IMG/VR virus record: IMGVR_UViG_3300023116_008583
Location: 26,192 to 90,191 of that record
Length of the DNA stretch: 64,000 bases
Source: a virus
Reading direction: 5' to 3' (one strand)
Every line of letters starts with the position of its first letter. Position 1 is the first letter of the stretch. Below the pieces are notes generated by a model that saw only the letters and a program-made list of their open reading frames with translations, made no database searches and was not told the origin of the DNA. A program made the position numbers and the translations under genes. This document shows positions 2,299 through 47,077 of this stretch, piece after piece.

Positions 2299-2446
2299 TC
2301 TAAATCCAGAAATCTTAAGAGTTATGTTAATGGCTGCTATTATAGAGCTAGAGGAAACTAAAAGAAAGAATTCTTTATACTCTGTGCTTATACCCTTTAT
2401 GTTTACAGTAGGCCTAGGCGTAGGCTTCTACATTGGAATTTCATAA
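2282..2446 (+). CDS. Small single-pass membrane protein, 54 aa
   Basis: A short frame starting at TTG 2282 with an excellent AGGAG 6 nt upstream, overlapping the end of the Smr gene by 17 nt. An ATG at 2324 is an alternative start. The N-terminal half is charged; the C-terminal half, around IPFMFTVGLGVGFYIGIS, is one hydrophobic glycine-rich segment. Function is unknown. The SD and coupling argue that it is real. Confidence 0.55.
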   Translation: MLPPDNLNPEILRVMLMAAIIELEETKRKNSLYSVLIPFMFTVGLGVGFYIGIS

Positions 2447-2459
2447 TTTTGGAGAAAAA

Positions 2460-2897
2460 ATGAAAGTTTATATCGCATCACCTTTTTTCAATCCTAAGCA
2501 AGTTGATCAAGTCGAGTTTATGAAGAATGCTTTGACTGCAACTGGTCATGAGTATTTTAGTCCAAAGGATTTTTTCGTTCTCAAACCAAATGCAACTCAA
2601 GAAGATCGTCAACGCATCTTTGATGTGAACTGCGAAAAGATTCAGTGGGCTGATTTTGTTCTTTGCAATACTGAGGCAAAAGATCTCGGTACTATTTGGG
2701 AAGCAGGATATGCTTATGGCATCAATAAGCCTGTTGTTTTCTTTGCAGAAGGTCTCCCGGATGGAAAGTTCAATGTGATGCTTAGTGAAGCAGGACAATC
2801 TGTTAATACGACCAGAGATCAGCTTGTCGATTATCTAGACCGTGTAAATGAATCTGGAGAGCTTATAATTGAACAGTACACGGGGTTCACGCAGTAA
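2460..2897 (+). CDS. Nucleoside 2-deoxyribosyltransferase-like protein
   Basis: A 145-aa protein starting at ATG 2460 behind GGAG at 2451. It has the family layout: N-terminal strand VYIASPFF, then CEKIQWADFVLC, and the active-site block DLGTIWEAGYA with D75 and catalytic Glu81, followed by the KPVVFF strand. These enzymes swap bases on deoxyribose or hydrolyse deoxynucleoside monophosphates. In a phage this fits nucleotide salvage or removal of unwanted dNMPs. An earlier in-frame ATG at 2433 overlaps the membrane peptide and lacks an SD. Confidence 0.8.
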   Translation: MKVYIASPFFNPKQVDQVEFMKNALTATGHEYFSPKDFFVLKPNATQEDRQRIFDVNCEKIQWADFVLCNTEAKDLGTIWEAGYAYGINKPVVFFAEGLPDGKFNVMLSEAGQSVNTTRDQLVDYLDRVNESGELIIEQYTGFTQ

Positions 2898-9550: not shown

Positions 9551-12500
9551 GTGTCATTTAAGAATTTCAAAGTACCAAACCGATTCGTAGGCTTACACGG
9601 TCATTCAGGATTCTCAACATACGATGGTTTAGGTTATCCAGCCGATCATATTGATTTTGTTCTTGAGAATCAAATGGACGCCTGGGGTCTCACAGATCAC
9701 GGTCACGGATCAGGTTTGGCTCACGCTCATAAGCACTTTGAGAAGATGAAAAAATCAGGTAGAAAATATCGACAAGTTTATGGTGTCGAGTTTTATTTTG
9801 TCGAAGATTTAGACGAGTGGAAGCGCCAATACGAGAACCACAAAGCTCGCATTAAAGCAGAGCGAGATGCAAAAAAAATCGAAGCCCTTGCTACCACAGA
9901 CGTTAATGTTGACAATGAAGACGAACTTATGTCTGAAGGTCATACTATTGAGAACGAGGATGAGTCTAAGCAGGGTTCAAAGGGCAAGCCAGAATGGATG
10001 CGTCGATACCACTTGGTTGTAACAGCTCGAGACCCAAAAGGATTAGCTAATCTATTCACGCTCGTCAAGCGAGGATATAAGGACGGTTTCTATCGTTTTC
10101 CTCGCATCGACTTCAAGATGCTCAAGGAGTTTGGAGAAGGTCTCAACGTCTCTACGGCATGTGTAGGCGGAATATTCAGCGGCAGAACTTTTCAAGAGTT
10201 TCCTGACCTAACATTTGATGAGCTCGGCCCCGAATTGCTCGATGATCCAGTCAAGAAAGCACGCCTGATGAAAACACTTGGCAACCTTACTGACAGGTTT
10301 GTTGACGCTGTAGGTGAGGACAACTTCTTCTATGAGTTGCAATTCAACAAGCTTTCAGCTCAACATATGGTCAACAGAGCTTTGATCGAATTGCACGATC
10401 AGACTGGAATCAACCTTATTACAACTTGTGACTCTCACTATCCCACTCCTAACAAATGGGAAGCTAGAGAGCTTTATAAGAAGCTCGGATGGATGGGTAA
10501 GGAGATGACTCCTCTTCCTGAGTTTGATGACCTTAAGTGTGAGCTGTATCCCAAGAATGCCTCACAGGTCTGGGATGAGTTTGAGCTCGGCTGGAACAAG
10601 TATGATTTCTATAAAGGGCGTGAGGACATAGTCAAGGATAGTATCGAGAGGACCCACGACCAAGTCTGGGATCGCTATCAAGACATGTGGGTGGATTCAA
10701 AGGCTAAGCTGCCGAATTACGCTGTGCCTCAAAAGAGTCATCCCTGCTATCCTTCTGCTCCTGAAGAGACGCCCTTCCAGCAGTTGGCGCTCAAGGTAAA
10801 GAACGCAATGATCAGTACGGGTCTTGCTTCTAAGCCTGAGTATGTTGCTCGAGTCAAGGAAGAACTGGACGATATCAAGTTTCTTGGCTTTGAGAATTAC
10901 TTTTTGACTATGCATGACGTGTTCCACCTCGCAGCTGAAAAGACGCTGTTCGGCCCCGCTCGAGGTTCAGGTGGCGGATCCCTTGTCAATTACTTGTTAG
11001 GCATTACTCAGGTTGATCCCATTCCATACGGATTGCTCTGGTCTCGATTCCTCGGCCGCCATCGTACTTCTTGGCCTGATATTGACTCTGATGCTGGCGA
11101 CCGCGATGCGCTCATCGACGCAGCTAGAGAGCTTTTTGGTGAAGATGCAGTGATTCCTGTCTCTAACTTCAACACTCTTAAACTCAAGTCCATCGTTAAG
11201 GATGTTGCCAAGTTTTATGATGTTCCATTCCAAGAGGTGAATGCGCTTACAGGACCACTCCAATCTGAGGTTGAGCCTCATGCTCGAGATGCTAACACTG
11301 AGAAGTCTGTGTTCGTCCTCACCCATGAGGATTGCATGAAGTACTCCAAGAAGTACAAGGATTTCATGGAGAAGTACCCTGACGTTGAAAAGCACGTGAG
11401 TACACTATTCATGGAGCAGAGATCTATTGGTCGACACGCAGGTGGTGTCCTAATTGCCGATGAGCGTGAGCTTGAGCAGACAATGCCGTTAATCTCAGTG
11501 CGTGGTGACTTACAGACTCCTTGGACTGAAGGCATGAACTTCCGTAACCTGGAAGATAACGGCTTTATTAAGTTTGACTTTCTTGGATTGACGCTGATGA
11601 AGGATGTGGAAAACTGCATTCGCAGAATCTTGATCAAGAACGGCAATCCCTCACCAACCTTTTTACAGATCAGAGATTTCTTTGATGAGCATCTTAACTG
11701 TCGCTACATAGGGCAGGATGACCAAAAGGTTTGGGAAAACACATATCATAATGCATCATTTGCACCCGGCATCTTCCAATTTACTGCTCAAGGTGCCAGA
11801 AACTTCTGCCACCAAGCTAAGCCTCGAAACATTGAGGAGCTTGCTGCAATTACTGCTATTTACCGGCCTGGACCACTCAAGGCAAATGTTCACGTTAAAT
11901 ACGTGGAAGCCGGAAAAGATATCGAGAATATCCAGTATGCACATCCGATCATCGAGGAGGTCTTAGGGCCAACAAGAGGCTTCATTACTTTCCAAGAACA
12001 GTTTATGACGCTTGCTGTTAAGCTTGCCGGATTCTCTCCAGGTGAATCAGATAAGATGCGCAAGACTCTTGTGAAGAAGTCTTTGGATACGATCGGTAAA
12101 AAAGGCTCTGAGCGTGACCAGCTTCGCAAGCAGTTCGTTGAAGGTGCAGAAAGGCTCCACGGCCTAGATCCAAAGGATATGAACGATCTCTTTGACAAGA
12201 TCGAGTTCTTCTCTCTCTACGGATTTAATAAGTCACATGCTGTTGCTTACGCAATCGACAGCTACTACGCTGCGTGGCTATATACTTATCATCCCAGAGA
12301 GTGGATCGCTACTGTTCTCGAGTCTGAGAATAATTCGCCACAAGGGCTAGCAAAAGCTATTCGAGAATCCAAAGCGTTAGGCTATAAGTTTGCTCCAGCA
12401 GATGTAAACTATTCAGGAGACGAGTGGACCTATAATAAAGAGTTGCAAGCTCTCATGCCTCCCCTTTCATCAATTAAAGGGCTTGGCGATAAAGCGATGG

Positions 12501-13480
12501 ATGAAATACTTTCTGCTCGTCCATTTAAGAACTTGAATGATCTTTTCTATGACAGTGAAGGTGAGTGGCGGCATTCTAAAGTGAACAAGACTTGCTTTGA
12601 AGCGCTATGTCAGATTGAAGCGCTCTCTTCTCTCGAGGAGTTCAAGGAAGGAAAACTCGATAATCATAGACAGCTCCTTCACATCATCTCAGAAAACTAT
12701 GAAAAGATCAGGAAAGGTCGAACAGGAGAAGACAAGCTCCGTGAACGCCTAGTTCGAATCGGCGAGCAAATCAAAGATGAGTTCGACAAGATCTTGCGCG
12801 TTTACGAGAAGACTAAGATGTCCGATTTGCAAGAACAAGCGTATCAACATATCTTTAATTGCAGTATCGTTGACTGGTGCTACAGTGAGCATGCAGCAGA
12901 TTTAGTCAAAGACATAGGGCATCCGAACCATAAGCGACAAGCTCAACTCGATAAATGCTTCGAAAGGCTTGCAAACTACTATGCCAGAAGAGATAAACTC
13001 GCAGACAGAATAGAGTCACTATTCAATATTGACACTTCTATTCTAGGTGTCTCTCACATCAAGGATTGGTCAAGAGATGAAAAGATAGTCTTGTACCAAC
13101 AAATAACGTCAGCTATTAATAACGCGCTGGTCTTTCCTGTAGAAGTTATGCGTAGAATTGAGAAAGCTGATGTTAAGTCTATATGTGAAATGGTGGGCGG
13201 AGATAAAGGTGTTGCCTGGGGTTGTGCAACTGAGATCATTAAAAAGAAGACCAAAAACGGCAAGGAATTTTACCGAATCAGAATGATGGACGACCAGAAC
13301 AGGACAGCATGGCTTCGTGTTTGGGGCAAGTTCTTTGATTGGGGTGAAGAGCGAGGTCAAAAGATCTATTATGAACCGCAACCCTTTTCCTACTGGCTTG
13401 TGGAAACCGAAGTAGATCCAAACTGGGGTGCATCTTCAGCCGCCTGGAAAATGAGAAAGATACCGCTTTATGATGATTAA
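9551..13480 (+). CDS. dnaE: DNA polymerase III alpha subunit (C-family replicative polymerase)
   Basis: 1309 aa, GTG start behind a good SD. The N-terminal PHP domain is intact-looking: HGHSGFSTYDG (~15-25), GLTDHGHGSG (~46-55), GVEFYF and CDSHYPTPN (~293-301). The polymerase core has ARGSGGGSLVNYLLG, the catalytic PDIDSD near residue 508 and the third acidic residue in IKFDFLGL near 674. FNKSHAVAYAIDSYYAAW near 890 is the conserved alpha motif, and an OB-type region lies near the end. The PHP histidines suggest built-in proofreading, since no separate epsilon subunit is visible here. It should copy the phage genome. Full length suggests an active enzyme. Confidence 0.95.
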   Translation: MSFKNFKVPNRFVGLHGHSGFSTYDGLGYPADHIDFVLENQMDAWGLTDHGHGSGLAHAHKHFEKMKKSGRKYRQVYGVEFYFVEDLDEWKRQYENHKARIKAERDAKKIEALATTDVNVDNEDELMSEGHTIENEDESKQGSKGKPEWMRRYHLVVTARDPKGLANLFTLVKRGYKDGFYRFPRIDFKMLKEFGEGLNVSTACVGGIFSGRTFQEFPDLTFDELGPELLDDPVKKARLMKTLGNLTDRFVDAVGEDNFFYELQFNKLSAQHMVNRALIELHDQTGINLITTCDSHYPTPNKWEARELYKKLGWMGKEMTPLPEFDDLKCELYPKNASQVWDEFELGWNKYDFYKGREDIVKDSIERTHDQVWDRYQDMWVDSKAKLPNYAVPQKSHPCYPSAPEETPFQQLALKVKNAMISTGLASKPEYVARVKEELDDIKFLGFENYFLTMHDVFHLAAEKTLFGPARGSGGGSLVNYLLGITQVDPIPYGLLWSRFLGRHRTSWPDIDSDAGDRDALIDAARELFGEDAVIPVSNFNTLKLKSIVKDVAKFYDVPFQEVNALTGPLQSEVEPHARDANTEKSVFVLTHEDCMKYSKKYKDFMEKYPDVEKHVSTLFMEQRSIGRHAGGVLIADERELEQTMPLISVRGDLQTPWTEGMNFRNLEDNGFIKFDFLGLTLMKDVENCIRRILIKNGNPSPTFLQIRDFFDEHLNCRYIGQDDQKVWENTYHNASFAPGIFQFTAQGARNFCHQAKPRNIEELAAITAIYRPGPLKANVHVKYVEAGKDIENIQYAHPIIEEVLGPTRGFITFQEQFMTLAVKLAGFSPGESDKMRKTLVKKSLDTIGKKGSERDQLRKQFVEGAERLHGLDPKDMNDLFDKIEFFSLYGFNKSHAVAYAIDSYYAAWLYTYHPREWIATVLESENNSPQGLAKAIRESKALGYKFAPADVNYSGDEWTYNKELQALMPPLSSIKGLGDKAMDEILSARPFKNLNDLFYDSEGEWRHSKVNKTCFEALCQIEALSSLEEFKEGKLDNHRQLLHIISENYEKIRKGRTGEDKLRERLVRIGEQIKDEFDKILRVYEKTKMSDLQEQAYQHIFNCSIVDWCYSEHAADLVKDIGHPNHKRQAQLDKCFERLANYYARRDKLADRIESLFNIDTSILGVSHIKDWSRDEKIVLYQQITSAINNALVFPVEVMRRIEKADVKSICEMVGGDKGVAWGCATEIIKKKTKNGKEFYRIRMMDDQNRTAWLRVWGKFFDWGEERGQKIYYEPQPFSYWLVETEVDPNWGASSAAWKMRKIPLYDD

Positions 13481-13664
13481 GCCAGGTGAACTAGTTCGAA
13501 TAACAAAAACCGCTGTACAAGATAGTAGGTTTTTGAACAAGGTTGGAGTGTTAATACGTGACGACGGAGTGGATGATTGTGGAATTCCAGAAGTATTCAT
13601 TCTTGTTGAAAGTGATATAATATGCGTATATCCTGATGGATATGAGATTGTGGAGAAAAATTGA
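13470..13664 (+). CDS. Small GDLV-type beta-barrel-like protein, 64 aa
   Basis: Overlaps the polymerase gene by 11 nt (ATG 13470, or 13473). Pattern IKPGELVRI, then KVGVLIRD, then VFILVESDIICVYPDGYEIV, resembles the other SH3-like miniproteins of this window. Function unknown. Confidence 0.5.
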   Translation: MMIKPGELVRITKTAVQDSRFLNKVGVLIRDDGVDDCGIPEVFILVESDIICVYPDGYEIVEKN

Positions 13665-14572
13665 TAACCTTTCCCGTCAATAAAATCGTTTTAGAGGGTT
13701 GCGACCTCTCAGGAAAGACAACGCTTTACAACGAGATACACAAAAGGTCAGGGTTTAGGTGGAACATGGATGATAGATCCGGTGTTTCAATGTGTGTTTA
13801 CGCTAACCTTTATAATCGGGATGATTTTTATCACCGAAATAATCTCCATTTGGAGATGTCGAACTTAAACAACCAGTTTGTTCTTCTGTACCCAGACATT
13901 CATACCATTCATGAAAGATTTTTAAGCAGAGGTGATGAAGCACAAGATATCTCTTCTTTGAGCGACCTTCACGTTCTTTTTGGAAAAGAGCTTGAAAGAT
14001 ATTGCATGCTACCTAATTTTCATATTTTCCAGACCGGAAAACCAGAAGAACAAGCACAAGAAGTTGTAAGAAGATGTCGGAGGCTTGAAAATATCTCCAT
14101 AGACACAATCGGAAATTATGTCAGAGAGTTTGCCAAATTTCAGCCTAACAGAGAATCCACTACAGTTCAATTTCACTTTTATGATGACGGGACCTTTGGC
14201 ACAGTTAACGAAGCAATTCTTTCAACTCCTGGTGAAGAAGAATACTACCAAAAGATCAGGCAGAACTTCCTTCAAAAGATTGAAAATGAGCTTAAGGGAA
14301 ACAATCACTACGGTAGAAAAGAGACGCCTGAATCTAGGCGGTTTGTGTTTGCAGGCGAAGAATGCATATCGTTCATTCAGGCAGTATTTAGAGATGATCT
14401 ACTTGATGTGCACGCTGTGTTTAGATCTTCCGATACCGAGCACAAGACAGGAACAGACGTTCAGCTGATACACATGCTTGGAAGAGATGTATTTAGAATT
14501 CTTAATCTAGACCCGGCCCAACACAAGGCTAGATTTCGATTTAATGTTAATAGTGCACACGTGCTAATCTAG
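13661..14572 (+). CDS. Fusion: P-loop (d)NMP kinase + thymidylate synthase/dCMP hydroxymethylase-like domain
   Basis: 303 aa, TTG start overlapping the previous stop. Residues 8-140 form a nucleotide kinase with P-loop EGCDLSGKTTL. Residues ~145-303 look like a ThyA-superfamily domain: SRR near 225, Cys235 in EECISFIQ, R255 in RSSD, D266 and a late NSAHVL. Spacing Cys235 to Arg255 (20) and Arg255 to Asp266 (11) equals Cys146-Arg166-Asn177 of E. coli ThyA. Asp in place of Asn177 is the change known from dCMP hydroxymethylases. This suggests a dCMP hydroxymethylase fused to the kinase that phosphorylates the product. The N-terminal part of the fold is short, so activity is uncertain. Confidence 0.65.
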   Translation: MITFPVNKIVLEGCDLSGKTTLYNEIHKRSGFRWNMDDRSGVSMCVYANLYNRDDFYHRNNLHLEMSNLNNQFVLLYPDIHTIHERFLSRGDEAQDISSLSDLHVLFGKELERYCMLPNFHIFQTGKPEEQAQEVVRRCRRLENISIDTIGNYVREFAKFQPNRESTTVQFHFYDDGTFGTVNEAILSTPGEEEYYQKIRQNFLQKIENELKGNNHYGRKETPESRRFVFAGEECISFIQAVFRDDLLDVHAVFRSSDTEHKTGTDVQLIHMLGRDVFRILNLDPAQHKARFRFNVNSAHVLI

Positions 14573-15023: not shown

Positions 15024-15950
15024 ATGAGAAGAGCACTAGTTACAGGTGCAGCAGGATTTATAGGATCAAATCTGGTCAAAAGGCTCTTGGCAGAAGGCTG
15101 GGATGTTGTAGGCGTAGATGACCTTAGCTCGGGACACCTTGAGCTACTTGACGGTGTTAGAGGACTGCGGCTTGTTATAAACGATTTCGCCTGCAAATCG
15201 ATAATCGAATCCATTGAGTGTCAAGAATTTGATGTCGTCTTTCACTTGGCGGCAATTCCAAGAGTAAGTTTCTCAGTTGAGAATCCTGCGCTTACCACTG
15301 ACGTCAATGTCGCGAGAACAGTCTGTCTTATGGAGGCATGCCGCGGAAACGTAGAGAGGTTTGTGTATTCATCTTCTTCGTCGGTTTATGGAGGAGCGGA
15401 TACTCTTCCTACACCAGTGACATATCCCAGAGATCCTAAGTCTCCATACGCATGGCAGAAATCTTGCATAGAAGATCTTCTTAGAACTTTTGGAAACTTG
15501 TACGATTTTGACTCCGTGTGCCTAAGATATTTTAATGTCTTTGGTCCCAGTCAATATGGTGACTCTCCTTACTCGACTGCAATCTCTGCGTGGTGTCATG
15601 CTGTTAAAAACGGAACGCCTCTTCGCAAAGATGGATCAGGAGAGCAAAGTAGAGATATGTGTTATGTCGATAATGTTGTAGATGTAAACATTCGTGCAGC
15701 AAATCACGAAGGAACATTTAGAGGTGAAGCTTTCAATGTGGCATGCGGCGATCGAACAAGCAATAACGAAATCCTCGATGCCTTTAAAGAGAGGTTCGGA
15801 GATTTACAAATAGATGAGGCACCGTTTAGGCCTGGAGATGTTATGCACACTCAGGCAGACATTTCAGAAACTGAACGTGTATTTGGTTATAAACCACTTG
15901 TTCGTTTTTGGGAAGGCCTTGAGAAAACTTTTGACTGGTGGGACATTTAA
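15024..15950 (+). CDS. NAD-dependent UDP-sugar 4-epimerase-like protein (extended SDR)
   Basis: 308 aa, ATG immediately after the previous stop. TGAAGFIGSNL (7-17) binds NAD, DDLSSG is at 32-37, FHLAAIPRV at 73-81, and the catalytic Tyr-x3-Lys is Y142 and K146 in YAWQK, preceded by the YSSSSSVYG block. LRYFNVFGPSQ and SRDMCYVDNVVD match GalE/WbpP-type epimerases. It could make sugars for capsid, DNA or host surface decoration. Confidence 0.85.
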   Translation: MRRALVTGAAGFIGSNLVKRLLAEGWDVVGVDDLSSGHLELLDGVRGLRLVINDFACKSIIESIECQEFDVVFHLAAIPRVSFSVENPALTTDVNVARTVCLMEACRGNVERFVYSSSSSVYGGADTLPTPVTYPRDPKSPYAWQKSCIEDLLRTFGNLYDFDSVCLRYFNVFGPSQYGDSPYSTAISAWCHAVKNGTPLRKDGSGEQSRDMCYVDNVVDVNIRAANHEGTFRGEAFNVACGDRTSNNEILDAFKERFGDLQIDEAPFRPGDVMHTQADISETERVFGYKPLVRFWEGLEKTFDWWDI

Positions 15951-20435: not shown

Positions 20436-20621
20436 ATGAGCCGGCGTCATAGGCGCATCTTACTAAACAACGACATTTATAAGATTATAATGAAGGTGTT
20501 CAACCGAAAGGGTAGATTCTGGTTAGTGCGTGTCCCGTGTTTAAAAAGATTTTTAGCGCATGAGATTGCCAATGAAGTTTCTAAGAGAGTTGAAGAGGAA
20601 ATAGAGCGTGAGACATCCTGA
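20436..20621 (+). CDS. Hypothetical basic protein, 61 aa
   Basis: Starts directly after the previous stop. The N-terminal half is strongly basic (MSRRHRRILL), the end acidic (RVEEEIERE). It overlaps the thymidine kinase gene by 14 nt. Function unknown. Confidence 0.45.
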   Translation: MSRRHRRILLNNDIYKIIMKVFNRKGRFWLVRVPCLKRFLAHEIANEVSKRVEEEIERETS

Positions 20622-21180
20622 GTTCATCATATTTACGGGACCTATGTTTGGATCTAAGACTACTCGGCTCATGGCAGTAGTTGATAGATTTAAGTACCAG
20701 AATAGAAAGGTGCTTGCATTTAAGCCGAAAATGGATGACAGATATGATCAAGCTGATATCGTAACTCACAACGGAGGAAAGATAACAGCAAGCACGATAC
20801 ACGATGCCGCAGAGATATTCATGCACTTGGCAGAATCAGATGACAACTATGATGTTGTAGCCGTAGATGAAGCGTTTATGATCAGTGGTATTGCAGATGT
20901 TCTCATATGGCTTTACCAGCGAGGAATAACAGTTGTAGTTTCTTCTTTGGATATGTCAGCCACATGTAAGCCGTTTGATGAGCTGCAGAAGATGATGCCT
21001 TGGGCTACAAAAATCGAGAAGTGTCCAGCTGTTTGTCCCGTTTGTAGTAGAGATGCCTACTATACTTATAAAAAGAATAATGATGGCATTGAGATCGCTG
21101 TGGGTGGTGCTGAGCTTTACGAGCCGAGATGCTTTGATCACCACCCCCTTATGAATAAGAGAGAGTACAATGATACCTAA
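20608..21180 (+). CDS. tdk: Thymidine kinase (type II)
   Basis: 190 aa, GTG start. P-loop GPMFGSKTTRL (residues 11-21), VVAVDEAFMI as the Walker B/lid region, SSLDMSATCKPF, and a zinc pair CPVCSRDAYYTYK match type II thymidine kinases. The P-loop reads FGSKTT where host enzymes have FSGKS/T, a form I recall from other phages. It makes dTMP from thymidine in the cytosol and complements ThyX. It overlaps its upstream and downstream neighbours. Confidence 0.9.
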   Translation: MRHPEFIIFTGPMFGSKTTRLMAVVDRFKYQNRKVLAFKPKMDDRYDQADIVTHNGGKITASTIHDAAEIFMHLAESDDNYDVVAVDEAFMISGIADVLIWLYQRGITVVVSSLDMSATCKPFDELQKMMPWATKIEKCPAVCPVCSRDAYYTYKKNNDGIEIAVGGAELYEPRCFDHHPLMNKREYNDT

Positions 21181-22588: not shown

Positions 22589-23080
22589 ATGCCAAAGTTT
22601 CCTGATGATCCAAATTGCTATGACTGCGGGTGCGATAGTAAGCCAGCGTGTCCGGGCTATCAGGAAGATGGGCGTCCTGAATGGGATAATGTGTGGATGA
22701 AAGTTACTCACAATGTAGCTGAACGCTCTTATGACCCTAGGCATAAAGTAGGTACCATTATCGTTACTGAGGATAACACGCAGTTGCTTTCCTTGGGATA
22801 TAACGGTAACTATAAAGGCGGCCCAAACAGAGCTGAATCAGATCAACCTGGTGAATCTGGATTTATACACGCAGAGCAGAATGCACTTATTAAACTAGAT
22901 TTTAACAACCCAAAAGTAAAAAAGATGTACATTACGCTAAGTCCTTGTTCACATTGTGCCAAAATGATTGTTAACTCGAACATTGACGAAGTGATATACG
23001 ATCAAGAGTATAGAGACTCTCGAGGACTAGGCATTCTTCGAGAAGCAGGAGTTAAGGTAAGACAGTACAGTGCTTCGTAA
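22589..23080 (+). CDS. dCMP deaminase
   Basis: 163 aa. Zinc and catalytic motif HAEQNA (H94, E96) with PCSHCAK (C120, C123); YNGNYKGGPNRAE is the dCMP-binding loop. A cysteine-rich N-terminus (CYDCGCDSKPAC, residues 10-21) may bind another zinc. The enzyme deaminates dCMP to dUMP, the ThyX substrate. If the 13661 domain uses dCMP, the two would compete for one pool. Confidence 0.9.
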   Translation: MPKFPDDPNCYDCGCDSKPACPGYQEDGRPEWDNVWMKVTHNVAERSYDPRHKVGTIIVTEDNTQLLSLGYNGNYKGGPNRAESDQPGESGFIHAEQNALIKLDFNNPKVKKMYITLSPCSHCAKMIVNSNIDEVIYDQEYRDSRGLGILREAGVKVRQYSAS

Positions 23081-25916: not shown

Positions 25917-26948
25917 ATGAGTGAATTTGATTTTGTTGACCATTACGAAGACCAGGAGGAGTCTGCAAATCTTCTTCCTGAAAATGAAGCTGAGTCTGCA
26001 ATTAATTGTGCTTTTGTAGGAGTTGGCGGCGGCGGCTGTAAGATTGCCAAAGCGTTCCTAGACTTGGGTTTTACAAAGACACTTTTGATCAACACTACGG
26101 ATAAGGATTTCCAATCAGGAATCGATAAGGATCATCTGCTGGCACTTCCGGGTGCAGATGGTGTTGCAAAGAATATTGAACTTGGTCGCAAGGTTCTCAA
26201 TGAAAACAGTGCATTGGTTGAAGATGCTCTGCGCACCAGGCTTGGCAAGGTCGACTGGCTTTTCGTTTGCGCCGGCGGCGGAGGTGGAACTGGTTCTTCT
26301 GCAGCAATCTTGGATCCTGTTTTTAAGAGATTCCTTGAGATTAATGAAGCATCTGGCAAGGTTGTTTATGTTGTCACATCACCTACATCTCAAGAGAAGC
26401 TAAACGCAACGATCAAGAGCAATGCTAAGTCTTTGGAATCAGATGTCACAGATAATCCTCACATCGTACTTGACAACGAACGTCAGCTGAACTCTTTCAG
26501 AGGTAAAGTTGGTGTCCTCGGTTTGTATCCGGCAGCGAACAAGGCGTTTGCTAAGATGTTCTGGCAGCTTTTGCGCCTTGCGTGCGAGCAATCTCCAATC
26601 CAAGCTTTTGACGGCAAGGATCTTGAGAGGTTCCTTAGTGCAACCGGCAGGATTGTTCTGGGGTCTGCAATCGTCCAGCCAAGTACAAATCTTGGTGTCG
26701 AACTTTATCAGAGTTGCATTAATAACTCTCCATGCCCAAAACCAACAGGCCATGCTGAGACAGGTGTTCTTTTGCAGGTGATCACCGAAGATCACGCTAA
26801 TGATGTTGATATTAGTGGGCACTTGGAAGCTGCTACTGCATATGTTGGCGGAAGAACAAATACACTGTTCTCAGGGATCTATGTTCGTGACGCACTACCA
26901 GGACTTGTAAGTGTTATGGCTCTTGCAGGATTGCCGTGCAACGATTAA
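25917..26948 (+). CDS. FtsZ/tubulin-family GTPase
   Basis: 343 aa. FVGVGGGGCKIAKAF (33-47) is the N-terminal nucleotide loop and GGGGGTGSSAA (120-130) the tubulin signature, followed by a strand and INEASGKVVYVVTSP. The C-terminal half is divergent from FtsZ, and the C-terminal tail for FtsA/ZipA binding is absent. Phage tubulins such as PhuZ centre the phage nucleus or move capsids. Here it could build filaments that organise replication or interfere with host division. Its end overlaps the next gene by 13 nt. Confidence 0.85.
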   Translation: MSEFDFVDHYEDQEESANLLPENEAESAINCAFVGVGGGGCKIAKAFLDLGFTKTLLINTTDKDFQSGIDKDHLLALPGADGVAKNIELGRKVLNENSALVEDALRTRLGKVDWLFVCAGGGGGTGSSAAILDPVFKRFLEINEASGKVVYVVTSPTSQEKLNATIKSNAKSLESDVTDNPHIVLDNERQLNSFRGKVGVLGLYPAANKAFAKMFWQLLRLACEQSPIQAFDGKDLERFLSATGRIVLGSAIVQPSTNLGVELYQSCINNSPCPKPTGHAETGVLLQVITEDHANDVDISGHLEAATAYVGGRTNTLFSGIYVRDALPGLVSVMALAGLPCND

Positions 26949-33407: not shown

Positions 33408-34166
33408 TTGTACATCACCAGAGACGACATTAAAAAGACGCTTACCTCTATGGTCAATTTTTACGGAGACTTAAAGGGAAGCTTTGATAAGTTTGGTATG
33501 GATCTTGAGTCTAACTTAGGCAGAAGAAACATCTTCATGTCGATGGCTCAAGAGGAGTTTCTTGCGAGGACATTGCAAGAGAAGTACGTTAATGTCGTTT
33601 CAGACGGTGCTCCTGGAATGCCCGATGTTTATATTGGTGACATTGACAAGGAGATCGAGTGCAAGCTGACAACAGTAAACAAGTCAGGAGCAATCAGCTT
33701 TCAGTCGGATTATGAGACTCTTTTGCAAAAGGAATCTCTCGACTATTTGTACTTTATTGCTTCTCCCAGTTTTGATAAGTTCACTGTTCTGCTTTTCGAG
33801 GGATTGACAGTTGATGACTTCAGGCCCCTTTCCCCGGGGTCCCGCGGAAAGGTTGCCATGAAGAAACATGAAGGCATGAAGAAGTGCACGGTTCTCTGGG
33901 GCGGGGTGATCAACAAGAACGAGCTCGAGATTCAAAAGATCGACAGTCTCACACAAGCCGCCCGAGACAAGTTCGACACGATCACGGAAGAAGTCACAAC
34001 CAGGGCCAAGACCACCACTGCCCCGGCTCAACTTGATAAACTTAACAAACGGATCGAACAGGAGCACGGGATCTTACGTCGAAAGCTGGACCGCCTCTTG
34101 AAGAGGAAGCAGTACTGGCTCACCGACCCAGGAAAGTACTCGTTCGATCTGCACAGCGTGGTATAA
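33408..34166 (+). CDS. Restriction-type PD-(D/E)XK nuclease candidate
   Basis: 252 aa, TTG start. The catalytic layout is clear: GMPDVYIGDIDKEIECKLTT with P72-D73 and E84-x-K86, then SFQSDYETL. The last 70 residues are basic and helical (KLDRLLKRKQYW), perhaps for DNA binding. It resembles type II restriction enzymes. No adjacent methyltransferase is seen, so it more likely cuts host or competitor DNA, or the phage DNA is protected by base modification. Confidence 0.6.
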   Translation: MYITRDDIKKTLTSMVNFYGDLKGSFDKFGMDLESNLGRRNIFMSMAQEEFLARTLQEKYVNVVSDGAPGMPDVYIGDIDKEIECKLTTVNKSGAISFQSDYETLLQKESLDYLYFIASPSFDKFTVLLFEGLTVDDFRPLSPGSRGKVAMKKHEGMKKCTVLWGGVINKNELEIQKIDSLTQAARDKFDTITEEVTTRAKTTTAPAQLDKLNKRIEQEHGILRRKLDRLLKRKQYWLTDPGKYSFDLHSVV

Positions 34167-38442: not shown

Positions 38443-39282
38443 ATGAAAGTACTCATTCTCGATGGTCATAATCTCATTCACCGTGCACGAGCGGGCTACA
38501 ACCGCGGTGCACATTCAATCACGTACATGTTCTTCAGGTCTCTCCGACCGCTGATTGAAAAGATGTCGCCTGACAAGGTGTATTTTGTGCTCGAAGGTAG
38601 CCCAAAGAAAAGAATCCAGCTAGACGGCGACTATAAAGCAAATCGAAAGATCGATGAGTCTGATCCAAAGTGGGAAACCATGCAGGACTTTTTCAGGCAA
38701 AAAGATGAGTGCGTAGAGTTGCTCTATCAGGCGTTTCCTTTTACTATTGTCCGCCATCCCGATTTTGAAGCAGACGACATCATTGCTCACTACGCAAGGT
38801 TGCACAAGGAAGATGACGTCGTGATCGCCTCAGGTGATTCTGATTTCATTCAGCTGCTAACAGATGAGAACCCACAGATCAAGCTTTATCATCCAATTAA
38901 AAAAGATTTTGTTACACCTCCTGACTATGACTACTTAGAGTGGAAGGCTATTCGTGGCGATGCTACAGACAATGTGCCTGGCATTCCTCGACATGGCGAT
39001 AAGACTGCGGAAAAGATTGTGAGAGATCCTGAACTCTTTGAGAAAAAGCTTGAGGATCCTGAGTGGGAAGCACAGTTTTTGAGAAACTTAAGCTTAATTA
39101 GAATTGATGCACTTACTCAAACCGAAATCGACGGTATTCAAGTCGTTGAACCTGACCTCAACACTCAAGTTATTAAAGAAGCGTTTGAAGGTTGGGAGTT
39201 TGGTTCTGTTTTAAAAGAAAAACCCTGGAATAAGTTTATCAAGACTTTCGAGGATATCTTAGAAGGAGAAAGCTTTGCCTGA
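38443..39282 (+). CDS. 5'-3' exonuclease (FEN/RNase H-type)
   Basis: 279 aa. ILDGHNLIHRA (4-14), KANRK, FEADDIIAHY (~107), IASGDSDFIQLL (~126) and WKAIRGDATDNVPGIPRHG (~165) followed by KTAEKI are the metal-binding and helix-hairpin-helix motifs of PolA N-terminal exonucleases and T4 RNase H. It should remove RNA primers and 5' flaps at the phage fork, which the C-family polymerase cannot do itself. It overlaps the glycosylase gene by 8 nt. Confidence 0.9.
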   Translation: MKVLILDGHNLIHRARAGYNRGAHSITYMFFRSLRPLIEKMSPDKVYFVLEGSPKKRIQLDGDYKANRKIDESDPKWETMQDFFRQKDECVELLYQAFPFTIVRHPDFEADDIIAHYARLHKEDDVVIASGDSDFIQLLTDENPQIKLYHPIKKDFVTPPDYDYLEWKAIRGDATDNVPGIPRHGDKTAEKIVRDPELFEKKLEDPEWEAQFLRNLSLIRIDALTQTEIDGIQVVEPDLNTQVIKEAFEGWEFGSVLKEKPWNKFIKTFEDILEGESFA

Positions 39283-40078
39283 AGGACCAGAATGTAGAAG
39301 AATGGCATTGCAGCTTGCTGAGCAAGTTTCTAACAAGACAATAAAGTCAATAGAAATACTCACAGGCAGGTATACGAAAAAACCGATAGAGAATATTGAG
39401 AAGTTTGAAGACGACTTTCCCATAAAGATCCAAGGTGCCGGAGTCCACGGAAAGTTCATCTTTTTCCTGCTCGATAATCAGTGGAGCATCTGGAATACTC
39501 TAGGTATGACTGGATCTTGGTCTGCTGAGCAGAAAAAGCACAGCAGAGTAAAGCTTTGTTTGAATGAAGGCGATTTATATTTTAACGACCAGCGTAATTT
39601 TGGAACTCTAAAGATCGTTCAAGGCAAAGATCCTCTCGTTGAGAAGCTTAACTCGTTAGGTCCAGATCTATTAGCTGAGGAGTGCCCGAACAGGTTGTTC
39701 GCCGAGCGCCTGGCAAAAAAGCACAATAAAACTATCGCTGAAGCAATAATGGATCAATCCGTCCTGTCTGGGGTTGGAAATTACGTCAAGGCTGAAGCTC
39801 TTTATCTTGCAAAGATCAGCCCAAACAGAGTCGTCAGCGATCTAACTTCAGATGAGATAGTGCTTTTGAATAAGACTACCAGATCAGTGCTGGTGAATTC
39901 CTTTGAGTCTGGTGGTGCAACTATTAAATCTTATGCCGATTTTTACGGTGATGTCGGCACTGCCACTGATAGATTTTTGGTCTACGGTAAAAAGTTTGAT
40001 CCTAACGGAAATCCTGTCGTAAGAGAAAAAACTGCTGACGGTCGCACGACACACTGGGTTCCAAAAGTTCAAAATTAG
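39275..40078 (+). CDS. Fpg/Nei-family DNA glycosylase, zinc-less
   Basis: 267 aa, TTG start. The N-terminal catalytic PEGPE (P2, E3) is exact, VHGKF carries the conserved lysine, and LSGVGNYVKAEALY is the helix-two-turn-helix. The C-terminal zinc finger is replaced: LVYGKKFDPNGNPVVREKT then TTHWVPKVQ retains the hairpin but has none of the four cysteines, as in NEIL1-type and some viral enzymes. It excises oxidised bases and nicks the strand. Confidence 0.88.
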   Translation: MPEGPECRRMALQLAEQVSNKTIKSIEILTGRYTKKPIENIEKFEDDFPIKIQGAGVHGKFIFFLLDNQWSIWNTLGMTGSWSAEQKKHSRVKLCLNEGDLYFNDQRNFGTLKIVQGKDPLVEKLNSLGPDLLAEECPNRLFAERLAKKHNKTIAEAIMDQSVLSGVGNYVKAEALYLAKISPNRVVSDLTSDEIVLLNKTTRSVLVNSFESGGATIKSYADFYGDVGTATDRFLVYGKKFDPNGNPVVREKTADGRTTHWVPKVQN

Positions 40079-45630: not shown

Positions 45631-46659
45631 GTGAACAACTTGTACGAAGTACTTGGTATAGATAAAACCGCCTCAGATAAAGACATTAAAAAAGCTTACA
45701 GAAATCTTGCGAAGAAGCTGCATCCAGATACATCAGATGATCCTAATGCCGAAGAAAAATTCAAGGAAATAAGCGCTGCTTACTCTGTTCTTAGCGATCC
45801 TCAAAAGAGAAATAATTACGACAAGTACGGCACAGCTGACCCACCTACTACAGGATTCAATCAAGGCCCAATGCCTAACATTGATGACTTTTTTGGTGGG
45901 TTCGGAGGTAATTTTGAAGACTTGTTTGGCAGGAATTCTAAAAGAAGCTCTGGGCCTCAAAGAGGCACAGACATTAAAGCCCAGGTCGTCATTACACTAG
46001 AACAGGCATCAAATGGCGGAGAAGTTACGATCAACTATGACAAGATAGCTAAGTGCGGTACTTGCAATGGGAAAGGATCTGAGACGGGTGATGTTAAGGT
46101 ATGCGGAGCTTGCAATGGTGCAGGAAGCACAACGCACCAGCAAGGATTCTTTACTTTTACCTCTTCTTGTCAAAAGTGTGACGGCCAAGGAAAAGCTGTA
46201 ATAGATCCGTGCATATCCTGCAACGGTAAAGGCGTCTCAAGAAAACATAAGAACGTAAGCGTAAAAATTCCCGCAGGAATCTCAGATGGAGCAGTCGTCA
46301 GATTAAAAGGAATGGGTAATGAAACCAAGTATGGTTATCCAGGAAATTTGCTCCTCGTAGTTCATGTTGCCAAAAATGAAAACTTTGAAAGAATTGGAAA
46401 TGATGTTCATGCTGAGTTGTGGCTAAGCGTAAGCCAAGCTATGTTAGGTGATATCGTAAAAATAAAAACACTATCAGGCGAAACTAAAAACTTAAATGTT
46501 CCTGCAGGAACACAGCATGAAGACAAGTTAAAAATCAAAGGCGCCGGAATCAAAGACGGAGATCATGTCGCCATCGCCAAAATTAAAATACCGCAATACT
46601 TGACACCCAAGGAGAAGGACTTAATTGAAGAGTTCCAAAAAATTAGAAAAGATCAATGA
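45631..46659 (+). CDS. dnaJ: DnaJ co-chaperone
   Basis: 342 aa from GTG 45631 (GAGG 5 nt upstream; GTG 45625 is the alternative). J domain with HPD at 31-33, a Gly/Phe linker ([14 protein letters not shown]), four zinc repeats ([32 protein letters not shown]) and the peptide-binding C-terminal domains: a complete type I DnaJ. It would steer host DnaK to phage proteins or to host replication targets, and feed ClpB. No DnaK or GrpE in the window. Confidence 0.93.
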
Positions 46660-47077
46660 CTGGCATCCTCCAAAATCTCCCTATGGTTTGATTCAAGAAG
46701 AATTATATGAAGATCCGTGGAAGATACTCGTTGCGTGTGTTTTTTGTAATTTGACAAGGAGGTTTACAGCTGAGCCCATCATGCGAGAGTTCTTTGATCT
46801 GTATCCTACACCAAATGATGCGATGAATGCGAACTCTTCGCGCTTGGAAGAGATGCTCAAGCCTATCGGGCTTAGCGCCAGAAGAGCAAAGACACTAATC
46901 AGAATGTCTAAAGAATACTTGGAAAAAGACTGGAAAGAGCCTATAGAGCTTTACGGTATTGGCAAGTATGGAAATGATGCGTGGAAGATATTTTGTACAC
47001 CTGACTGGAAAAATGTACAGCCAAAGGATCACGCTTTAAATTGGTATCACGATTGGCTAATTGCCAATTATGCATAA
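46625..47077 (+). CDS. MBD4-like HhH-GPD DNA glycosylase
   Basis: 150 aa, TTG start within the end of dna[28 protein letters not shown]-like [35 protein letters not shown] and [14 protein letters not shown] match the catalytic domain of vertebrate MBD4 almost block for block, with hairpin GIGKYGND (111-118) and catalytic Asp135. MBD4 removes T or U mispaired with G after deamination of (methyl)cytosine. In this phage it may guard modified cytosine. Endonuclease III Fe-S cysteines are absent, as in MBD4. Confidence 0.85.

Follow-up and report, generated by a model that had tools for sequence, protein, structure and literature searches.

Results and Discussion

The fusion gene and its neighbourhood

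The window, that is, the whole stretch of DNA that was analysed, comprises the last 64 kb of a virus record of 90,191 bases. It carries a gene for a 303-residue protein that joins a dNMP kinase-like domain to a reduced thymidylate synthase-fold (ThyA-fold) domain (Table 1). Relatives of this protein were collected from IMG/VR over several search rounds, and the family alignment used below (A8) holds 16 representative sequences (15 of them IMG/VR relatives) that share 34-99% identity with the window copy. Every full-length copy is built from these two domains in the same way. In one relative, L009/L048 (L009:8001-8910), a frame break interrupts the kinase half, possibly a sequencing error, and the C-terminal half is intact; its contig, L009, is also the source of L016/L048/L071. 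A search of GTDB genomes gave zero relatives of the fusion, and the C-terminal half had no match among INPHARED phages. Some of the related records are >130-235 kb long.

Comparison of the neighbourhoods of 16 fusion loci revealed an almost invariant order of DnaE-like polymerase, fusion gene and NAD-epimerase. The same cassette includes a DHH protein in 14 loci and a superoxide dismutase-like protein in 10. No DNA glycosyltransferase was recognised among annotated and unannotated neighbours.

Table 1. Features of the fusion gene and its surroundings; positions are those of the window unless a record is named
Feature	Position	Strand	Evidence or remark
dUTPase_2/NTP-pyrophosphohydrolase-like + HAD/polynucleotide-kinase-like fusion	L019:4693-5697 = G000:24693-25697		just upstream of the window
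Divergent ThyX (Thy1) family protein, 327 aa	815..1798	+	PF02511 6.9e-19; sole other thymidylate synthase-type gene found in the record
Nucleoside 2-deoxyribosyltransferase	2433-2897	+	PHROG_7995, 1.6e-27
DnaE-like DNA polymerase III alpha, upstream	9551..13480	+	family in 15/16 loci; tblastn to annotated DnaE-like polymerases
Fusion gene, 303 aa: dNMP kinase-like + reduced thymidylate synthase-fold domain	13661..14572	+	open ORF, TTG start
N-terminal kinase domain, residues 1-143, YorR/phage thymidylate kinase-like	13661..14089	+	PHROG_761, YorR profile, Foldseek
C-terminal reduced ThyA-fold domain, residues 145-303, nearest AfhB	14093..14569	+	hhalign, shuffles, Foldseek, class profiles, tree
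S225-R226-R227, phosphate-binding SRR (R126/R127) of ThyA	14333..14341	+	invariant 16/16
C235, catalytic Cys position (ThyA C146, gp42 C148)	14363..14365	+	invariant 16/16; hhalign
R255-S-S-D258, RSxD motif (ThyA R166-D169)	14423..14434	+	alignment
D266, Asn177 position; Asp as in gp42 (D179) and AfhB	14456..14458	+	invariant 16/16
S298-A299-H300, H207 region	14552..14560	+	SAH common to AfhB and relatives; GSLHVY in gp42
NAD-dependent sugar-nucleotide epimerase, WbgU/GalE-like, downstream	15024..15950	+	family in every locus compared; nearest solved WbgU/GalE
Thymidine kinase, TK1 type	20608..21180	+	PF00265 1.9e-38; 14 loci
dCMP/cytidine-deaminase family protein	22589..23080	+	PF00383 8e-20; 12 loci

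The N-terminal half resembles phage thymidylate kinases

The kinase half contains a P-loop (EGCDLSGKTT, residues 12-21), a DRS motif (38-40) and a lid sequence RFLSRGD (86-92). The corresponding class signature, GxxxxGK[TS] with a DR motif and the lid RxxxRGD, is present in the fusion. When single sequences were searched with HMMER (Pfam, PHROG and PDB), the fusion protein gave only weak kinase or P-loop matches and no ThyA match. At the level of the family the signal was stronger: PHROG_761 ('thymidylate kinase') was matched by 15 of the 16 members (best 1.5e-12) and the profile of the kinase half matched YorR (2axp) at 7.9e-6. Foldseek aligned the kinase half of the predicted structure with YorR (3kb2) at a TMt of 0.68, the Foldseek TM-scores being moderate because each target spans one of the two domains. 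The likeness to YorR and the PHROG_761 kinases resides in the P-loop, the DR[S] motif and the RGD[DE] lid; those enzymes are stand-alone proteins, whereas the kinase described here is the N-terminal half of a fusion.

The C-terminal half belongs to the ThyA superfamily

AlphaFold2 run with alignment A8 returned a model of the whole fusion with a pLDDT of 89.7 and a pTM of 0.86; a model obtained from four near-identical sequences (pLDDT 42) was set aside. The best solved Foldseek match in the PDB was AfhB, a dCMP 5-hydroxylase of phages, with dCMP (9iqu, E 2.0e-6). A second AfhB-type structure, 9iqc, was matched at 3.1e-5 and bears the title 'monooxygenase dependent on riboflavin with dCMP and FAD'; the titles of 9iqc/9iqu name flavin and dCMP. 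Further matches of the C-terminal half included many thymidylate synthases, T4 dCMP hydroxymethylase (1b5d, 3.1e-4) and MilA (5b6e). The first-pass annotation had described a kinase fused to a ThyA-fold domain and had called for structure prediction and a search against ThyA and T4 gp42; the model bears out this description in both halves, and gp42 is among the structures found.

Profile-profile comparison led to the same result. With hhalign, the family profile of the C-terminal half matched a ThyA/gp42 profile with a probability of 95.3% (P 2.3e-8, score 57.4) and paired C235, R255, D266 and H300 with C148, R168, D179 and H216 of T4 gp42. The highest score among 100 column shuffles was 22.3, and the reversed profile scored 9.9. 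Since both controls fell far below the real score, we rejected a chance resemblance to ThyA. PHROG_160 ('thymidylate synthase') was matched by 8 of the 16 members (best 2.3e-4), and Pfam PF00303 by none of the family members. We read the latter miss as a limit of sensitivity because the predicted fold and the profile-profile comparison both identified ThyA. The set of residues typical of the superfamily (SRR, catalytic Cys, RSxD and the His of the H207 strand) occurs in order in the fusion. As judged from profiles and model, the C-terminal half is a member of the ThyA superfamily, which confirms the original observation.

Active-site residues

SRR225-227, C235, R255, S256, D266 and S298-A299-H300 are invariant in 16/16 sequences. 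The gp42 counterparts of SRR, C235, R255, S256, D266 and H300 are R123/R124, C148, R168, S169, D179 and H216. Position 258 is Asp in most members and Asn in L055/L057, as in AfhB. C235, R255 and D266, with spacings of 20 and 11 residues, had been picked out in the window copy at the outset, and they lie where they were placed. Three residues and their spacing mean little alone; they gain significance because they are invariant across 16 members at 34-99% identity. Conservation is also higher in the ThyA half than in the kinase half, a pattern that fits poorly with a domain in decay.

Published work on gp42 names C148 as the nucleophile and D179 as the residue that selects cytosine (PMC6400193). 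The invariant Asp266 at the Asn177 position fits a cytosine-nucleotide substrate, and the dCMP-type residue noted in the single sequence is thus a property of the family. E192, a possible counterpart of the catalytic Glu58/60, is invariant as well; the sequence alignment puts it near Y96 and not at E60.

AfhB is the nearest class

We compared the C-terminal half with the known classes of the superfamily. In hhalign comparisons against class profiles, AfhB-like sequences scored 52.0, other phage ThyA-family proteins (mostly Asp-type) 45.5, gp42-like proteins 34.6 and ThyA 29.1, so that the margin of the AfhB-like class over the mixed phage set is modest. Against single sequences, all four AfhB-like proteins scored 40-43, T4 31 and Escherichia coli ThyA 33. 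When the family was resampled 40 times, the AfhB-like class came top in 39 cases, and it did so as well in each half of the family. In a tree of 65 core columns, the fusion joined AfhB-like and Rhizobium-phage sequences with a support of 0.84, on a long branch. The gp42, ThyA and other phage sequences in the comparison keep Gly175 and Tyr218, and neither residue is present in the fusion family or the AfhB-like proteins; in the fusion family the two positions are K/V/I/L and L/I/V, respectively. By profiles, tree and model, the C-terminal half is, among phage ThyA-fold classes, nearest AfhB and not T4 gp42.

One sequence in the comparison (L033, from a Mosigvirus) is nearly identical to 9iqc. 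The Mosigvirus enzyme is a 5-hydroxy-dCMP synthase of the ThyA superfamily; the phage DNA contains arabinosylated 5-hydroxycytosine derived from 5-hydroxy-dCMP, and the sugar-gene cluster includes an epimerase (PMC13390438). Sugar genes including an epimerase are thus common to both systems, and AfhB (9iqu, 9iqc) further resembles the domain studied here in its ThyA fold, SRR, Cys, RSx[D/N], Asp at 177, SAH[VI] without Tyr and lack of Gly175. AfhB has 238 residues, compared to ~150 here; the fusion has a shorter C-terminus, a shorter SRR-Cys loop and an added kinase. Because AfhB is nearest in profile, tree and residues, and because of the Mosigvirus 5-hydroxy-dCMP, we rank 5-hydroxylation ahead of hydroxymethylation.

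The first-pass annotation had proposed the latter, namely gp42 and gp1 in one chain making 5-hydroxymethyl-dCMP from methylenetetrahydrofolate and then phosphorylating it. T4 gp42 (1b5d, 6a9a) does share the fold, the catalytic Cys and the equivalent of Asp179 with the fusion, the Arg and His are conserved in addition, T4 dCH is among the Foldseek matches, and Asp258 of RSxD is kept in most members. However, the gp42 profile score is far below that of AfhB. The signature published for hydroxymethylases is D145, an Asp that precedes the catalytic Cys by three residues (PMC6400193); the family has Gly, Asn or Asp there. The family lacks Gly175, Arg177, Tyr218, Arg220 and a C-terminal segment, the chain ending 2-3 residues past the His without the C-terminus that closes over folate in ThyA, and neither Glu60 nor the Trp80 segment has a clear equivalent. 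In T4 the kinase is a separate protein (gp1). We consider a folate-dependent hydroxymethylase unlikely; of the earlier proposal, the fusion and the dCMP-type Asp stand, and the chemistry in its stated form is not supported.

Two-gene arrangements of a similar kind occur in HTVC119P (gp15-gp16) and Gordonia phage Forza, where a kinase gene lies directly upstream of, and overlaps, a gene for an Asp-type ThyA-family protein. These are two genes with full-length ThyA-family proteins, whereas here one chain contains a reduced domain; by analogy, the gene pairs plausibly represent the state before fusion.

Nucleotide metabolism of the phage

No canonical ThyA gene (PF00303) was found elsewhere in the phage's own record and 13 related records. 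A ThyX-family gene is present in 14/14 related records. The RHR motif of the window copy is only partly canonical, and two relatives (G013 and G014) have both a canonical and a divergent ThyX copy, which suggests that the function of the divergent copy may differ from dTMP synthesis. The ThyX-type protein likely makes the dTMP of this phage. Together with the dUTPase_2/NTP-pyrophosphohydrolase-like fusion ahead of the window (Table 1), the presence of PF08761 in 14 of the 15 records would be in keeping with a clearance of dCTP or dUTP.

These genes bear on the reading of the fusion as a compact thymidylate synthase-thymidylate kinase that converts dUMP via dTMP to dTDP. In its favour are the likeness of the kinase half to thymidylate kinases, a search of eight records that revealed no PF02223-type kinase outside the fusion, and the neighbouring genes for a dCMP deaminase and a thymidine kinase. 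The general presence of a ThyX-type gene, the replacement of Asn177 by Asp in every family member and the absence of the folate-site residues and C-terminal tail make this reading very improbable.

Proposed function

We propose that the fusion is a bifunctional enzyme that would convert dCMP to a C5-modified dCMP, most likely 5-hydroxy-dCMP, and then to the diphosphate. From sequence, model and the analogy with AfhB, we put the probability of this proposal at roughly 50%. The ThyA-fold domain, acting as the expected dimer, would bind dCMP and hold its phosphate through SRR. Cys235 would attack C6, with Asp266 reading the N3/amino face of cytosine and protonating N3. A substituent, most likely a hydroxyl, would then be added at C5 in a hydroxylation that resembles the AfhB reaction and may depend on flavin. 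The modified dCMP would be handed to the N-terminal P-loop kinase, and the diphosphate would pass to the dNTP pool, from which the phage's own polymerase would incorporate the modified nucleotide into phage DNA. The neighbouring epimerase may serve a later decoration of the 5-hydroxyl with sugar. Modified cytosine in the virion DNA, as the first-pass annotation also predicted, is plausible.

The shortness of the domain relative to AfhB and its long branch speak against a hydroxylase; the reduced domain may have moved to another chemistry. The modest margin over the mixed phage set and the failure to recognise a DNA glycosyltransferase also count against the proposal. Fpg-type glycosylases excise 5-hydroxycytosine. 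The window encodes a Fpg/Nei-type DNA glycosylase (39275-40078, + strand) that has kept the N-terminal PE residues and in which the C-terminal zinc finger was not seen. Such an intact-looking enzyme sits badly with unprotected 5-hydroxycytosine in the phage's own DNA.

Extreme shortening, the long branch and the loss of parts of the folate and possibly the flavin pocket would also be expected of a domain that binds dCMP or modified dCMP and performs other C5 chemistry or none, serving to hold the substrate for the kinase or to regulate it. Against this, Cys235, SRR, RS, Asp and His do not vary even in relatives of 34% identity; together with the higher conservation of the ThyA half this points to catalysis through the Cys. 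We rate this reading as rather unlikely. A further possibility, less likely than not, is a miniature folate-free ThyA-fold enzyme, peculiar to a single lineage of large uncultivated phages, that would place a C5 substituent on dCMP and pass the product to its own kinase to yield modified dCDP, by a chemistry perhaps unlike both hydroxymethylation and the hydroxylation by AfhB.

The fusion of a kinase with a ThyA-fold domain appears to be new, both activities being relatives of known ones. If the bifunctional reading is true, a single polypeptide both makes and activates a non-canonical DNA precursor. Such an arrangement is absent from the phage systems in the literature examined; a preprint on glycosylated 5-hydroxycytosine could mention such fusions. 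It would also mean that phage DNA modification by way of 5-hydroxycytosine, a branch recognised only recently, reaches a distant lineage, would show how small a ThyA-fold catalyst can get, and would predict that cytosine is modified in phages known from metagenomes, the virions of which have never been analysed.

Other genes in the window

An HhH-GPD protein is encoded at 46625-47077 (+ strand), and its C-terminal part is one that we take to read like MBD4. A glycosylase for mismatched or deaminated bases would suit a phage with an easily deaminated modified cytosine. The product of 33408-34166 (+ strand) had no match in Pfam and PHROG searches; by eye it contains a PD...ECK motif (GMPDVYIGDIDKEIECK) of the PD-(D/E)xK, restriction endonuclease-like type. 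The first-pass annotation connected modified cytosine with this nuclease and the MBD4-like enzyme, a link that we regard as speculative.

The frame at 25917-26948 (+ strand) gave a weak match to the tubulin/FtsZ family, below the Pfam cut-off. The phage also has cpn60 (40525), a ClpB-like protein (35422) and DnaJ (45625). Further phage genes encode a superoxide dismutase-like protein (23440), IMPDH (18537), UvdE (48340), a phosphomannomutase (42089) and an M50 peptidase (8228).
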